Below the pieces are notes generated by a model. It was given only the letters and a program-made list of their open reading frames with translations, ran no database searches and had not been told where the DNA came from. A program made the translations under genes and the position numbers. This document shows, piece by piece, positions 24,319 through 55,438 of a DNA stretch of 64,000 bases (position 1 is its first letter; every line of letters begins with the position of its first letter). Source of the stretch: an uncultured Schlesneria sp. (GTDB taxonomy: Bacteria; Planctomycetota; Planctomycetia; Planctomycetales; Planctomycetaceae). The DNA is taken from NCBI GenBank assembly GCA_903904835.1, contig CAIVEI010000113.1, forward strand, positions 1-64,000, in the 5' to 3' direction.

Positions 24319-26193
24319 TCAAGGGGCAGGCCATCGGCTAAGTCTTCCTGCGACTGCGTCGTTGACAATCCGTTTGACTGCTTCAGCGGGAATCGCCCAA
24401 CCGTCACGATCGTCTGCGCCTCCAATAGTGACCGCAATCACCTTACCGGTGAGGTCGATTAATGGACCACCCACTGCAAAAACGGTAATCGATGGTGAAT
24501 ACACCATCGCGATTGGAAAATCACTGGCGCGGTACGTTCGTTGTGAATATGTGTCGGCAGGTTCAAGCGGAAGCTGAACGGTGATCGTCTCGTCGTCTCG
24601 GACGAAAGCTATGGGAACAGTGTCGCCCGTCAAATGATTGCTTACGGAACTCTCTAGATCTGCTTCGGTTTGAAGATTGTGACCATCGACCGATACAAGA
24701 CGATCCCCTGCTCTGAGTCCCGCTCGCTTAGCGAAACCGTGGACGGCCTTCACGAGAAGCCCTCCATCGGGAGAGATTTCACCATACACATTCGGTTTTT
24801 CAACTTTGACTCGAAGAGGAAGATCATCGGTTGGTATCTGGACATGGCTGACATGGCGAGTTGCGACGCTGATGATTCCAATTGAAACGGGTTCGCCATG
24901 AGGGCCGATTGCGGCGACAACCGTTCCCGCAGACCTCCTTTCCTGATCTGACGACCAACGTACGGGCTGAACCGAATTCGGGGGAAGCTGAATGACAGCC
25001 AGGTCGAACGGCTTGTCCACGCCGATCACAACGCCTTCCACGGTCGCCCCGTCAGGTAATTGACACTGAAACTGCTGCGGCAGCAGGCTCGCTTTGACAA
25101 CTGCCGAACCTTCCTCGTTTACAACGGTTCCCAGCGCAATTGGAACTCCATGATTAAGGATCGTGACGATACCCGTTTGTAGTGGCTCCGCCAGCGGCTG
25201 AAATAGCGAGATCAAATTCGCCCCCTGGGTTTCGTATTCAGTATCCAGCTTCGTCCCTTCGACGAGGTTTTGGAGATAACGGAAACTTCCTCTGGGAGGT
25301 ATTTCGCCGTTCAACATCGATTTATAAAACGTTTCAATTCGCGGGATGGAGATGGCCGACCACTTTAAACGATGATGCGAAAAGTCGTTGTTCGGTTCAT
25401 TAAAAAGCGGCACGGCATAGCTGATTATTCCCACCAACCGACCATCCAGATCGAAATACGCTGAGCCACGCCAAGAAGGACAGTCATTCATGAACGCCTC
25501 GGGATCGACACCAAGAACCCGACCGAGATGTGCCGGTACGAGACCTTCGTTGCTCAAACCAGACGAATGACCCAGTTCGATCACCCAATCACCTCGCGGA
25601 ATGACGGCGTTCGACTCCAATGGGACGAATGGGTATGGCCCCGGATCTGTAATTTGAACCAGAGAAATATCGTAGGTCCGATTCCCTCCGAGTAGCTTGG
25701 CTTTGCATTCCTGTCCGTTCGCCAGGATGACCACAGTTTCTTCGCCGGGCTGATAGAGTTGAGAATCGTCATAGGTACCAGCGCGAGCATGACTGATCGT
25801 CAGTTTCGTCAGGACGAGTCCATCCGCGGTGATGATGACTCCGGTCCCTCCAAGCGAATGTGTCTCCTGACGAGGGAGAGATGCTTCTGACGGGCTTAAT
25901 ACACCGACAACCGCTGACTGAACTAGCTTCTTCGCTTGAATAAATCGATCTTCGACATGCCGAAGATCGTCAAACTCCATCGTAAACGGGCGGACTGGCT
26001 CTTTTGCAATATAGGCGACAGGCGCCAATGGCGGAGGCCTTTTGGCCGCCTCGGCGGCAAGGATACGATCGCGCTCTCGTAAGGCGTTCACACAGATCAG
26101 AACAACACCGCCGACGGATGCCACGATGAGTAGCAACAGCACGACCAGTATTCTCTTCGCCCAGTTCACATTGGATCGCCGAGGACTGTTCAT
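24319..26193 (-). CDS. HtrA/trypsin-like protein with PDZ domain, apparently catalytically dead
   Basis: 624 aa with an N-terminal membrane anchor (about 13-35), so probably periplasmic. Two trypsin-like domains are visible. In the first (about 95-290), GTGVIITADGLVLTK and DISLVQI match HtrA, but the active-site loop reads CPSWRGSAYFDLDGRLVGI, putting Arg where GNSGGP has Ser, and the His position is shifted. In the second (about 338-615), GTVVNEEGSAVVKASLL lacks the His, while AVGGPLIDLTGKVIAVTIG has Val for Ser. A PDZ domain (about 462-545; KAVHGFAKRAGLRAGDRLVSVDG) lies inside the second domain, before its Ser loop. A chaperone or scaffold role is likely (inference). Confidence 0.8.
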   Translation of the reverse strand: MNSPRRSNVNWAKRILVVLLLLIVASVGGVVLICVNALRERDRILAAEAAKRPPPLAPVAYIAKEPVRPFTMEFDDLRHVEDRFIQAKKLVQSAVVGVLSPSEASLPRQETHSLGGTGVIITADGLVLTKLTISHARAGTYDDSQLYQPGEETVVILANGQECKAKLLGGNRTYDISLVQITDPGPYPFVPLESNAVIPRGDWVIELGHSSGLSNEGLVPAHLGRVLGVDPEAFMNDCPSWRGSAYFDLDGRLVGIISYAVPLFNEPNNDFSHHRLKWSAISIPRIETFYKSMLNGEIPPRGSFRYLQNLVEGTKLDTEYETQGANLISLFQPLAEPLQTGIVTILNHGVPIALGTVVNEEGSAVVKASLLPQQFQCQLPDGATVEGVVIGVDKPFDLAVIQLPPNSVQPVRWSSDQERRSAGTVVAAIGPHGEPVSIGIISVATRHVSHVQIPTDDLPLRVKVEKPNVYGEISPDGGLLVKAVHGFAKRAGLRAGDRLVSVDGHNLQTEADLESSVSNHLTGDTVPIAFVRDDETITVQLPLEPADTYSQRTYRASDFPIAMVYSPSITVFAVGGPLIDLTGKVIAVTIGGADDRDGWAIPAEAVKRIVNDAVAGRLSRWPAP

Positions 26194-34465: not shown

Positions 34466-35674
34466 TCAATCAATCACTCGAAACGCATCGTTTTTCTTGT
34501 AAACGATGGGGCCTCGACCTCCTGCTGGTTCGAATTCGATGTGACAATCCAGTAGCACTCCCACGCTTGCGTCATTGGGAATTTCGATTTCCGCAGTGAT
34601 GACATTTCCCTGGCGAGACATTTTTTTCGCTTCATAGGGACCGAACTGGCACCAGCTTGGCTTGTCGGAAGGAACTGGAAATCCGCGTTTGACGTTCTCG
34701 GGGGTCAATTCAATCTGGATTTCATGCGTTTTGCCACGCGATGCCGTCCCTGGACGAACTGACGTAATCACCTGTTCCATACGAGTTCCTGGTTGAGCAT
34801 TATTCTCGATCGGGCCTGTCCCCGCTTGTCTCAACCCACGGCTGTTTGATGGTTCAACGACCCCAGCATAACCACCCATGATGTACGGGAACCGACCCGG
34901 AGTCACATGATAGTGATAGCCCCGTTCTTCGTCCTTGTGTCCGTTGCACACATCCAGCGCATTGCTCCCTTTGACATCCTTGGCCATCAGGCCTGATGCT
35001 TCCCAGGGACCGTAAACAGGAAACCCGTCAAACGCAAAGCCGATAATGGGAGAATGCTGTTTCCCATCGTCCGAGAAGGGTGACTTCACGCAACTTGGAT
35101 ACTTGTGGTAGTGGTACATGCCGGTCGGGGACGGATGCCCGCAGCAGGAATCCAGCCAGACCTCGGAATAGCCTTCGACAGCATTCATGCCCCCCGCTTC
35201 GAAGGGGTTAAAGAAGACTACTCCGTTGATTGCCGTACCAATCGGCCCCATCGGCAAGCGGGTAATGTGGTCGGCCAGTTTCGGTTCCAGCGGCAATCGA
35301 AAGACCAGGTTTTGCAGCACGATCGAATTAGGGTTTCCGCTATTCGGAAAGACTGCCGTTGGATGATTCGGATATCCCTGGCTTTCCATGATCAGGAATT
35401 GTTTGTCATGACTCAGCCTGACGTTCTCGATCCCGTCCTTATTCGAATCCTTCGTGTGATAGGAAAACAGGTCGACAAAACGGTCAGCGTCCCGATAGAA
35501 GTAAACCGGTTTAGTCCCTTCCTTAACGTACCACTTGCCTCCGATCGGTTTCAGATCCTTTGGAGGTTCAGCACCATTGCTGATACCAGTTCCTGTGGAA
35601 AAAACGATTGAAATCATCAAGCAGCAAATGAGCTTCAGCAAGGCGACTCGGTTTCGTTTTCGGCACGGAATCAT
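34466..35674 (-). CDS. YHYH domain exported protein
   Basis: 402 aa with a signal peptide (basic start, then LLKLICCLMISIVFSTGTGISNGA). The YHYH domain is evident, with two copies of the defining motif, GMYHYHKYPSC and GYHYHVTPGRFPY, plus DSCCGHPSPTG and GFAFDGFPVYGPW. These His/Cys groups suggest a metal site, but family function is not established. The C-terminal 100 residues form a beta domain (HEIQIELTPENVKRGFP, GVLLDCHIEFEPAGGRGPIVYKKNDAFRV). ATG 35674 is used; a GTG at 35686 is an alternative. It appears to stand alone. Confidence 0.85.
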   Translation of the reverse strand: MIPCRKRNRVALLKLICCLMISIVFSTGTGISNGAEPPKDLKPIGGKWYVKEGTKPVYFYRDADRFVDLFSYHTKDSNKDGIENVRLSHDKQFLIMESQGYPNHPTAVFPNSGNPNSIVLQNLVFRLPLEPKLADHITRLPMGPIGTAINGVVFFNPFEAGGMNAVEGYSEVWLDSCCGHPSPTGMYHYHKYPSCVKSPFSDDGKQHSPIIGFAFDGFPVYGPWEASGLMAKDVKGSNALDVCNGHKDEERGYHYHVTPGRFPYIMGGYAGVVEPSNSRGLRQAGTGPIENNAQPGTRMEQVITSVRPGTASRGKTHEIQIELTPENVKRGFPVPSDKPSWCQFGPYEAKKMSRQGNVITAEIEIPNDASVGVLLDCHIEFEPAGGRGPIVYKKNDAFRVID

Positions 35675-35743
35675 GGCTGACGTCACTTTCGATTGAGATG
35701 AACCAAACAGTCAAAACGACGGACTTGATTCTGATCTAGTGAA

Positions 35744-52537: not shown

Positions 52538-52858
52538 AAGCGACTGAAATCCTCTGGGTTTGGTCGGTTCGTGTGCTATGTCCTCGACCGGGAGAGACCG
52601 ACTCGGGCATTGTCCCGATAATCTACCACGCCGAACATCGAGAAACAATCTGTACATCGCAGCAATCGCCGTTCCAAAGTGGCCTCGACAGGTGTACGTC
52701 GGAGGATCAGAAGATGAAGGGAGTGTGTGTTTCTTCACAGACCCGGTCTCAGTCTCAGAAAATGATCTCTGAAGGTTTGGAATCTCTCAGGCTGGCTTTT
52801 AGAATCCGCCTGCGTTGACTTCGACTGATCCCACTCGCGATTTAAAAAGGTCATGCTG
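52538..52858. other. Divergent intergenic region
   Basis: Lies between the YheT-like gene (minus) and the PHP-domain gene (plus). Short frames exist but have neither ribosome sites nor recognisable products. No repeats or clear promoter boxes identified. Confidence 0.45.
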
Positions 52859-55438
52859 ATGAAGTCGTTATTCGCCGTCATGGGAACAGCACTTCTGCTC
52901 GTTCTTGCGGTTGGACTGGGTGCTGCCAGACAAGTGACCACAGTTGGTGACAAGCCCGTTGAGATCGCCGTGCTGACGGAAGCGACTTGGGAAAGATTTT
53001 TGCCTGAGGGAAAAGAGGTTGACGCCATCTATGGTGACGTCGTGTTGCGAAACGGCTATGTCTCTGCGGTGATCGCTCAGCCTCTGGCAACCCGGCACGC
53101 CAACATGACCGTTCGGGATGTGGCCGGTGCAATTATCGATTTCACAGTCCTGTCGTTGCCGAATGATCAGCTTGCTGCCTTTTATCCAGGAAAGAAGGTG
53201 TTCCCCTACCGGACGCTGACGGCACTCGATAACAACGGTAAAGATTTTTCGATAGAGGCACCGATTGCATCGCAGAAGTCTATTGCTGTTGCCGTCAAAG
53301 CGGATGGAAATGACGAACGTCCTGAAGCGGTTGTGCGTTACGAATTGGGTCCGTCAGATCGGTTTTTGACCGTGACGACGACTTATACGAACCATACTTC
53401 ACAAGTTCTGTCCGTCACGCTCGAAGATGAATTCCGGGCCGATGGCGGCAAGGAAGAGATGTCACGTACTCCCAATGGAACAGTCGATCGATTCTGGCTC
53501 GAAGACCGTTTCTGGGCTCAAGCGTATGGACTCGATGCCGAAGGCTACAAACTTCAACTGACCAGCGATCCGAAGGTCACGTCGATCCGTTATGAAAACA
53601 AAGAAGGTTCGTCAAAGATCACTTTGGAACCGGGCAAGTCATATCAACTGAAACGCCGCTTTTATCCCGGCGCAAATCTTGTCGCTGTAAATGCGATTGC
53701 AGCAAACCTGGCTCCGTCCAATTCGACAGCGATCCCGATTGCCGTCAGAAACAAAAGTAGTCGATCACTACCCAAAACATTGATCGAATTCAAAAAGGGC
53801 GAGATTTCCTACGGAACCGTTCGAACCGACGCCGAAGGGATGGCTTCAGTCGTACTTCCAAACGAAGAACTGACGGCCGACGTTTTCGCCTTTGGACGGA
53901 AGATTGCATCGAGTCTTGCTGTACCGATCAGCCCTCGTCCTCTGGTGCTGACAGTCGATTTCGATCCTGGAGTAGTCTCGGCCACCATCACAGACGGCGA
54001 TGGTCGATTGATTCCCTGCAAAGTCGAATTCAAGCAGCTCGGCGACGATTCCAAACTGGATTTCGGTCCCGAGACGGGTGAGTTCTCCGTTCGAAACCTG
54101 GTCTACACGGCCAGTGGGAAATTTCAACGACCGATACCATCCGGCAAATATGCCGTGGCAATCAGTCACGGCCCTGAGTTTGACGCGGTGTTTACAGAGG
54201 TGACCGTTCAGCCTGATGAAACCGTTCCGCTCGTCGCAAAACTGATTCGGACGGTTGAAACACCGGGTTGGGTCAGCGGCGAATTTCACAGTCACAGCAG
54301 TCCGTCTGGCGATAATACGTCAAGTCAACTTGGGCGAGTCCTGAATCTCGCTGCGGAACAGATCGAATTCGCGCCGTGTACCGAACACAACAGGGTCAGC
54401 ACCTATCAGCCGCACATCGACCGATTAGGACTCCGTTCACAGTTGGCGACGGTATCAGGGATCGAAATGACAGGAGTCCCCCTCCCCTTAAACCATCAGA
54501 ACGCATTCCCGATGAAACTGACTCCGCGAACGCAAGACGGCGGAGGGCCGATCGCAGGCCCTGATCTGGAAACCCAGATTGAGCGATTGGCGTTGCATGA
54601 CGATCGCAGTGAAAAGTTGATTCAGGTCAATCATCCCGATATCGGCTGGATGTTTTATGATAAAGATGGAGATGGCAAACCGGACAGCGGATTCGAGCGG
54701 GCATTTCCATTCATGGACGTGATCGAAATTCACCCGATCGACCGCGTGCTGAATCTCGGCCCATTCACCGAGATTGAAGGTAAACAATATCACAACACGA
54801 TTTTCAATTGGTTGCAGTTGCTGAACCAGGGTTTTCGGATTTATGGCGTCGTAAACACCGACGCTCACTACAACTTCCACGGATCGGGTTGGCTGAGGAA
54901 TTGGATTCAGTCGTCGACCGACGACCCAGCCAAGATCGACACGATGGAAATGGTGCGTGCCGCCGAGCGAGGCCGATTGGTCATGTCGAACGGGCCGTAT
55001 CTTGAAGTCACCGCTCAGGAGTCGGGCAAGCCAGACGTTCACGTTGCTGGACAAGATCTGAAAGCGATGTCTGGCAAGGTGTCGCTAAAGGTCCGCGTAC
55101 AATGTCCAAACTGGCTGGACGTTAATCGCGTCTTCGTGCTGGTCAATGGGCGTATTCACGAAACGCATAACTACTCTCGCGAGAAAACACCGGACGCTTT
55201 TCGCGGCGGTATCGTGAAATTCGAAAGAACACTCGATCTCGAATTGAAATCCGACGCCCATCTCATCGTGGCAACAGGCAATTCAGCCGGAAACCTCCTC
55301 TCGATCTACGGTTTGGAATACGGCAAGTCACAACCTGCTGCAATGACAAATCCAATCTTCGTCGACATCAACGGTGACGGCTTCCAGCCAAACAAAGACA
55401 CCCTCGACGCACCCTTGCCGGCAAAATTTCCCAGGTAA
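52859..55438 (+). CDS. Exported CehA/McbA-type PHP-domain metallohydrolase
   Basis: 859 aa with a signal peptide (MKSLFAVMGTALLLVLAVGLGAARQ). The first 460 residues are beta-rich, including a carboxypeptidase-regulatory-like part (VVSATITDGDGRLIPCKVEF). The PHP-type metal site starts at about 473: GWVSGEFHSHSSPSGDNTS, then EFAPCTEHNRVS, with later acidic/His groups (VNHPDIGW, NTDAHYNFHGSGWLRNW). CehA/McbA enzymes hydrolyse carbamates and related esters; this protein's substrate is unknown. ATG 52859 has AAGG 8 nt upstream; ATG 52853 would be only 2 nt from it. Confidence 0.85.
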   Translation: MKSLFAVMGTALLLVLAVGLGAARQVTTVGDKPVEIAVLTEATWERFLPEGKEVDAIYGDVVLRNGYVSAVIAQPLATRHANMTVRDVAGAIIDFTVLSLPNDQLAAFYPGKKVFPYRTLTALDNNGKDFSIEAPIASQKSIAVAVKADGNDERPEAVVRYELGPSDRFLTVTTTYTNHTSQVLSVTLEDEFRADGGKEEMSRTPNGTVDRFWLEDRFWAQAYGLDAEGYKLQLTSDPKVTSIRYENKEGSSKITLEPGKSYQLKRRFYPGANLVAVNAIAANLAPSNSTAIPIAVRNKSSRSLPKTLIEFKKGEISYGTVRTDAEGMASVVLPNEELTADVFAFGRKIASSLAVPISPRPLVLTVDFDPGVVSATITDGDGRLIPCKVEFKQLGDDSKLDFGPETGEFSVRNLVYTASGKFQRPIPSGKYAVAISHGPEFDAVFTEVTVQPDETVPLVAKLIRTVETPGWVSGEFHSHSSPSGDNTSSQLGRVLNLAAEQIEFAPCTEHNRVSTYQPHIDRLGLRSQLATVSGIEMTGVPLPLNHQNAFPMKLTPRTQDGGGPIAGPDLETQIERLALHDDRSEKLIQVNHPDIGWMFYDKDGDGKPDSGFERAFPFMDVIEIHPIDRVLNLGPFTEIEGKQYHNTIFNWLQLLNQGFRIYGVVNTDAHYNFHGSGWLRNWIQSSTDDPAKIDTMEMVRAAERGRLVMSNGPYLEVTAQESGKPDVHVAGQDLKAMSGKVSLKVRVQCPNWLDVNRVFVLVNGRIHETHNYSREKTPDAFRGGIVKFERTLDLELKSDAHLIVATGNSAGNLLSIYGLEYGKSQPAAMTNPIFVDINGDGFQPNKDTLDAPLPAKFPR

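Follow-up and report, generated by a model that had tools for sequence, protein, structure and literature searches.

On the minus strand of the window (the whole stretch of DNA that was analysed, 64,000 nucleotides), an open reading frame of 624 codons was found at 24319-26193. Its product matched a protein of the same genus (G007, 627 aa) in a single frame, with 33% identity over residues 81-610 (E 2.2e-61). All features of this gene given below lie on the minus strand. The protein begins with a hydrophobic helix at residues 9-50 (26044-26169), seen in the structure model and with a mean hydropathy of 3.5 over 12 aa, which would be a membrane anchor or an uncleaved signal. A trypsin/HtrA-like barrel follows at residues 73-297 (barrel A; 25303-25977), as indicated by Pfam and structural alignment. 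The second barrel (barrel B) was found in two parts, an N-terminal half at residues 326-455 (24829-25218; structural and profile alignment) and a C-terminal half with the Ser loop at residues 551-619 (24337-24543; alignment). Between them, in loop L3 of barrel B, a PDZ domain was located at residues 456-546 (24556-24828) by Pfam, the model and the alignments. In Pfam, two stretches matched Trypsin_2, and residues 478-542 matched PDZ_2, the only PDZ domain of the protein. Against TIGR02037, the NCBIfam model of the Do family, the protein scored 102.2 bits, below the curated cut-off of 416.2 bits. Elsewhere in the window, an 861-aa open reading frame at 52853-55438 (plus strand) had no Pfam match (E 1e-5), and a 406-aa protein with a YHYH domain is encoded at 34466-35686 (minus strand).

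The initial annotation had described the product as a doubly degenerate HtrA-like protein and had proposed structure prediction as a check of the two domains and of the PDZ insertion. Both were borne out by the AlphaFold2 model (pLDDT 81.9, pTM 0.75), which showed two barrels and was built on an alignment of 47 sequences, where barrel A was covered by only 11 fused relatives, fewer than barrel B, two of them being at most partial owing to contig edges. Residues 261-276 had a pLDDT below 50. When the model was aligned with known structures, the protease domain of DegQ matched residues 326-619 (Z 23.9, 184 aligned, 2.4 Å) and HtrA1 matched residues 73-297 (Z 21.3, 187 aligned, 3.0 Å), so that both halves have the trypsin-like double barrel of the HtrA/Do (S1C) fold at Z 21-24. 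Some of the structural matches, with ranges such as 70-619, join parts of the two barrels.

Subsequently, the catalytic sites were examined. Barrel A reads LTKLTIS at the site where its relatives read LTAAHV, which places Thr132 (25798-25800) at the catalytic His site in both profile and pairwise alignments and confirms the missing His that had been annotated. Asp175 (25669-25671), the Asp of barrel A, is still present in the alignment. The Ser loop of barrel A, residues 237-247 (25453-25485; DCPSWRGSAYF), is shortened; as aligned, DCPSWRGSAYFDLDG is three residues shorter than the loop of G007. The residue at the Ser site hinges on gap placement, being Arg242 (codon 25468-25470) in the profile alignment and Ala245 in the pairwise alignment with G007, so the annotated Arg is one of several readings of this site; Ser244 is also conceivable from the sequence. 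Because the His is missing, barrel A is without a triad whatever residue occupies the Ser site. A frameshift or sequencing error behind the odd loop was considered and rejected, since the other frames of the DNA at about 25440-25499, read by eye, contained no GDSGG coding. A real deletion of three residues appears the likelier origin of the loop.

In barrel B, the alignment placed Ser369 (25087-25089) at the His site and Val574 (24472-24474) at the Ser/Cys site, the latter as annotated. Asp397 is kept and, like Lys367, lies within the N-terminal half (24829-25218), and Arg446 (24856-24858) corresponds to the loop L3 Arg. The PDZ domain follows the strand that ends in SVATRHV and precedes the Ser loop of barrel B; it is upstream of the second Ser loop as first noted, and between the halves of the barrel instead of C-terminal to a protease domain. 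Accordingly, no His-Asp-Ser triad is present in the protein: barrel A has Thr-Asp with an altered, short Ser loop, and barrel B has Ser-Asp-Val. The reading as doubly degenerate is supported by the sequence and by the structure models: in the window protein, two domains with the shape of a protease, each without its cutting residues, are fused behind a membrane anchor.

Fusion of two units usually adjacent in planctomycetes

Two neighbouring genes often matched the query in related genomes, one for each half. The query was matched somewhere in 51 of 59 related genomes, many of them through the PDZ domain or a partial barrel only. By alignment, the first gene (gene A, about 360 aa) encodes a protease with LTAAHV, the Asp and GGDSGGPL followed by a C-terminal PDZ domain, and the second (gene B, about 370 aa) encodes a protease-like protein with a PDZ domain inside. 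A GTDB scan with the B alignment gave 287 loci. Among the best 80 of these, which were found with the pattern [VLI]G[ILV]NIAR[AG]GR and in which the NIARxGR motif is consequently over-represented, gene A lay directly upstream of gene B on the same strand at 65; the median gap in the paired loci was 53 nt, and 61 of the 65 gaps fell within -47 to 162 nt. Pairs from cultured planctomycetes include L043 of Zavarzinella formosa and L091 of Gemmata. A and B were fused at 11 of the 80 loci, in the order A then B in all 11. No A gene was seen at four, of which two are at contig edges and two are near-identical to each other. (At the near-identical loci, L040 and L041, about 4.9 kb of sequence upstream of B contains no A gene.) The best 30 loci of a phylum-wide search comprised 21 pairs, 2 fused genes and 7 without A in the fetched flank. 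In three genomes examined in which A does not adjoin B (G018, G025 and G054), an A-family gene with H-D-S was found elsewhere; the A profile gave these unlinked genes 351-369 bits, and the best ordinary HtrA genes scored alongside them 187-200 bits. Taken together, these results show that the window gene joins two units which planctomycetes usually encode side by side.

By their titles, 76 of the best 80 loci are planctomycete, three belong to Verrucomicrobiota (L103, L107 and L110) and one to Nealsonbacteria (L102). The last is a fused pair on a contig titled Candidatus Nealsonbacteria that groups with the planctomycete fused pairs and is perhaps misbinned. Clustering of the open reading frames around the 80 loci gave one large family consisting of antisense shadow frames of A and B and a family of 13 loci that is apparently also a shadow frame; shadow frames apart, no neighbour family occurred at more than 8 loci, where the flank is often shorter than 5 kb and rarer neighbour links could escape. 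No conserved neighbour pointing to a substrate of A-B was found among the 80 clustered loci.

Besides G007, a second full-length fused relative was found in the same family (G442, 927 aa; E 7e-129 with the two-sequence profile of the window protein and G007), and another fused relative (L097, 577 aa) has an intact first barrel and one PDZ domain. The G442 gene (L152, 1357-4140) shows an Asp-to-Glu change in the A triad and carries about 330 additional C-terminal residues without a Pfam match (E 0.01). A LolA-like C-terminus common to G442 and the gene beside the G007 copy was considered, and was not accepted at E 0.036. On a quick tree, the fusion state changed at least four times, as gains or losses, with two of the changes forced by strongly supported branches; the number was again four after relabelling of L002, whose A half fell below the 150-bit cut.

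Within the genus, 2 of 15 genomes, the window genome and that of G007, matched either the entire query or the full breadth of the B profile. In the family, 94 of 170 genomes matched the two-sequence fusion profile at E <= 1e-25, mostly one half at a time, and 82 of 392 sampled genomes of the phylum matched the B profile at E <= 1e-20, some of these matches being partial and possibly from ordinary HtrA. In family f30 (e.g. G258:C66 and G279:C12), open frames of mostly about 960-1010 aa had two partial B matches, at about 37-258 and 173-348, each of which included the PDZ columns, which suggests a duplicated PDZ domain or another arrangement.

Active-site pocket and inserted PDZ domain of the B family

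Conserved residues were counted in two overlapping sets, some genomes occurring in both: the 80-locus set, and a second set not chosen by NIARxGR, which holds the best-scoring loci of protein and profile searches, some of which had gone into building the profiles. Rows with a domain score of 150 bits or less (80-locus set) or 100 bits or less (second set) were dropped beforehand. The counts over 95 and 105 rows were not de-duplicated; those over 99, 60 and 51 rows and the conserved-column counts were. The A relatives carry H-D-S in 94 of 95 rows of the 80-locus set, the remaining row being incomplete; in the second set, 50 of 51 unique rows have it and G442 (H-E-S) is the exception. Among B rows with a letter at the site, the window protein included, Ser stands at the His site in 101 of 105, Asp is kept in 105 of 105 and Cys occupies the Ser site in 103 of 105; L094 and the window protein have Val there. 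The second set gave the same picture for B, with Cys in 60/60, Asp in 59/59 and Ser at the His site in 57/59, together with a Lys two residues before that Ser (59/59), Arg306 (60/60) and Arg309 (58/60).

Columns of B conserved at 95% or more were concentrated in the active-site segments (16 of 45 columns, against 11 of 234 elsewhere; Fisher p 6e-8), and similarly in the set found with NIARxGR (17/45 against 12/232; p 2.7e-8), the segments having been picked after the alignment was seen and for the B family only. Some of the conserved glycines of these segments are also conserved in ordinary HtrA. Since HtrA proteases do not have the Cys, Lys and Arg at these positions, the pocket of B looks to be under selection rather than drifting. 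Furthermore, because the homologues carry Ser-Asp-Cys at the triad sites, the inactivity of B would be old and conserved. This bears on the initial annotation, in which both domains were taken to have lost their catalytic residues. By sequence neither site would be functional; the missing His and Ser of barrel B, however, are not decay in this copy. Homologues with active motifs, which the annotation had named as grounds against its reading, do exist for A and were not found for B, and of the inactive residues only the Ser at the His site of B is conserved, not the Thr and short loop of A or the Val of B.

A conserved pocket of this kind could also mean that B is an active enzyme in which Ser-Asp-Cys, Lys and Arg make up a remodelled site for catalysis or covalent binding; the inserted PDZ domain would gate this site, and the window protein would have lost it. 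The invariance of the Cys and Arg306 and the clustering of invariant columns in the pocket agree with such a site, and in trypsin folds Cys can stand in for the Ser nucleophile, as in picornaviral 3C proteases. Yet nearly every B protein has Ser where the general-base His would stand, none of the 41 columns with at least 90% conservation is a His, and His279 of the QHD motif is Thr in 15 of 99 B proteins. We consider an active B very unlikely.

The place of the PDZ domain was examined with a model of a separate B protein (L096; pLDDT 86.6, pTM 0.77). With VIA-align, its residues 60-353 aligned with the AlgW protease domain (181 aligned, 2.0 Å, Z 24.4) and its residues 64-353 with DegS without PDZ (172 aligned, 1.8 Å), in both cases leaving over as an insertion about 110 residues that equal the PDZ domain. 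The profile alignment with a DegP-like chain (22kg) agreed, from sequence, with the VIA-align result: positions 70-165 of the B profile matched 99-199, positions 283-336 matched 206-264 and the PDZ domain, 167-277, matched 265-386. The PDZ domain of the B family thus lies between SVxxR and FPxVLQHD, and its counterpart follows the protease in DegP. Foldseek matched the L096 model to the HtrA family (best E 2e-16) with poor superposition (TM 0.25-0.38, rmsd at least 9 Å) and seems to have matched protease and PDZ in chain order; the insertion is read from VIA-align and the profile alignment, as the Foldseek superposition does not show it by itself.

Judged from the alignment, the gap between SVxxR and FPxVLQHD corresponds to the position of loop L3. 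According to the accessible part of one study, the PDZ signal of DegS passes to the catalytic domain via L3, and Thr176, Arg187 and Gln200 of DegP are proposed to act between subunits (PMC5666011). With residue numbers mapped from DegP to the B family by alignment, 94 of 99 B proteins have the L3 Arg (53/60 in the second set) and 92 of 99 the Gln of QHD (52/60); 89 of 99 have Pro at the equivalent of Thr176, so the HtrA relay would not have been copied whole.

Divergence of the window protein

The window protein shares the build of the A-B module, with an A barrel followed by a B barrel and the PDZ domain in loop L3 of B. At the sites where the module carries H-D-S in A and Cys in B, it has T-D-R (by profile) and Val. 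Among the rows covering the sites, the loss of A's His together with the altered A Ser loop is unique to the window protein, and the loss of B's Cys is found in it and in L094 only. As 94 of the 95 relatives carry H-D-S, the loss of the A triad (His and Ser) appears to be specific to the window's lineage, and the missing Cys of B is read in the same way. In L094 (4917-5990; locus title Phycisphaeraceae), where B has a gene of its own, Val takes the place of the Cys as it does in the window protein, and the A gene of this locus keeps H-D-S.

In the B tree, the window row was the most divergent, having the longest end branch (2.43 against a median of 0.3). It departs at 14 of 41 conserved B columns plus 1 gap, the most departures of any row, and at 17 of 50 conserved A columns plus 6 gaps. 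It paired with G007 (98 SH-aLRT), both being long branches, and when either was left out of the B tree the other had no supported place. Because neither could be placed singly, we relied on the full-length match to G007 and not on the tree.

This divergence is what would be expected if the gene were decaying, that is, if a once active A-B fusion under relaxed selection were heading to a pseudogene with no present function. The two full-length fused relatives, G007 and G442, still have A's His and Ser and B's Cys; the two copies in the genus stand at sites with differing neighbours, no synteny with G007 being found; the L3-partner Gln is lost, as are B's Cys and the NIARxGR loop; and the G+C content at third codon positions (0.52) is just under the range of the 11 neighbours compared (0.53-0.59). 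A codon-frequency score did not separate the frames of the gene. Against decay, the 624-codon frame is open without an internal stop and matches G007 in one frame, and many fold residues are kept in a confident model, along with the two barrels, the PDZ domain, the L3 Arg (446) and the membrane helix. Decay is a serious possibility, though we regard it as somewhat unlikely.

Possible role and comparison with known systems

The explanation that we favour overall, with moderate confidence, is that B is a non-proteolytic, PDZ-controlled subunit working with A, and that the window protein is a non-cutting membrane PDZ scaffold. The frequent adjacency of A and B, their fusion in the order A then B and the intact A suggest that the two may form one complex with B as its regulatory subunit. 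By analogy with MamO/MamE and with the dead domain of DEG7, B is most likely a PDZ-controlled regulatory partner of protease A. In the proposed mechanism, B, a non-cutting pseudoprotease, would assemble with protease A; peptide binding at the PDZ domain of B would be relayed via L3 straight into B's barrel, and the signal would pass from there to a neighbouring A subunit, turning A on or off. In the window protein, with both active sites gone, what remains would be a membrane-bound, peptide-binding scaffold, a chaperone-like holder or a decoy. We read it as a membrane-anchored PDZ scaffold because the A triad is lost; if it is not decaying, it would be a derivative with both barrels dead that has been retained to bind peptides, as a scaffold or a decoy.

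A decoy of a particular kind was also considered, in which the window protein is dominant and joins the trimers of the cell's ordinary HtrA proteases, lowering their activity. The HtrA fold is kept in both barrels, and further HtrA-like genes exist in the genome, where the A profile finds 14 matching places (E 1e-15 or better), several of which outscore the window protein. We nevertheless find this improbable. A further, more specific proposal is that the pocket of B, with its invariant Lys, Ser, Asp, Cys and Arg, would be a covalent or redox-sensitive ligand site steering A in trans, the PDZ domain being spliced into the sensor loop; the window protein would then have kept the PDZ/L3 scaffold and discarded both cutting and the Cys site. 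This proposal is speculative, and we think it quite unlikely.

How a PDZ domain switches an HtrA protease is a long-standing question, in which loop L3 is a proposed relay. A natural graft of a PDZ domain into L3 of a dead barrel, beside or fused to a live-looking one, would let the relay be tested as separate parts. The Ser-Asp-Cys/Lys/Arg pocket of B is a pseudo-active site found in many planctomycetes and so far unexplained, and, to judge from the window copy, the module may be worth retaining for its non-catalytic parts alone.

The window protein resembles HtrA, DegP, DegS and DegQ (S1C) in its trypsin-like barrels (Z 20-24 among the matches listed), its PDZ domain and its hydrophobic N-terminus. 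Unlike them, it has the PDZ domain inside loop L3 of barrel B and not after the barrel, and both of its catalytic sites are gone, with Ser-Asp-Cys in the B family. PDZ domains within or between parts of a protease fold are known from the C-terminal processing proteases (S41, e.g. CtpB) and from RseP, whose catalytic folds are unrelated to HtrA barrels. MamO gave Z 20.4 with barrel B of the window protein (5hm9; 173 aligned, 2.5 Å). Pseudoproteases of the MamO type have a di-histidine metal site on their surface. In the available text on the magnetosome proteins, MamO promotes proteolysis by MamE without catalysis or a triad of its own (PMC4794232), and an HtrA-type protease with a pseudoprotease paralogue is the arrangement proposed here for A and B. 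The same text gives MamO a TauE-like domain (PMC4794232), which sets it apart; the B family is planctomycete, with the PDZ domain in L3 and a conserved Cys.

Plant DEG7 likewise has two HtrA barrels in a single chain, of which, in the part of the report at hand, one is potentially active and one degenerate, the inactive barrel being reported to share in trimerisation, and has four PDZ domains in the order PD-PDZ-PDZ-PDia-PDZ-PDZ (PMC3473262). The window protein does not share this combination of one active and one degenerate barrel with PDZ tandems: it has one PDZ domain, inside the dead barrel B, and its first barrel is dead too. Deg5 and Deg8 of Arabidopsis form a mixed complex. These two HtrA members are treated jointly in one structure paper, as far as its accessible text goes (PMC3640471), and Deg5 is described in the available part of another as being without a recognisable PDZ domain (PMC3473262); unlike the window protein, neither has an inserted PDZ domain. 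The accessible portion of a survey of microbial PDZ domains records many PDZ proteins in planctomycetes and does not describe the A-B arrangement (PMC6411480), and searches of open-licence PubMed Central yielded no account of the A-B pair or of an HtrA barrel into which a PDZ domain is inserted, which is a weak test of absence. Taken together, the component parts are of known kinds, and the arrangement with PDZ in L3 and the conserved Ser-Asp-Cys pseudo-site represent a new variation on them.
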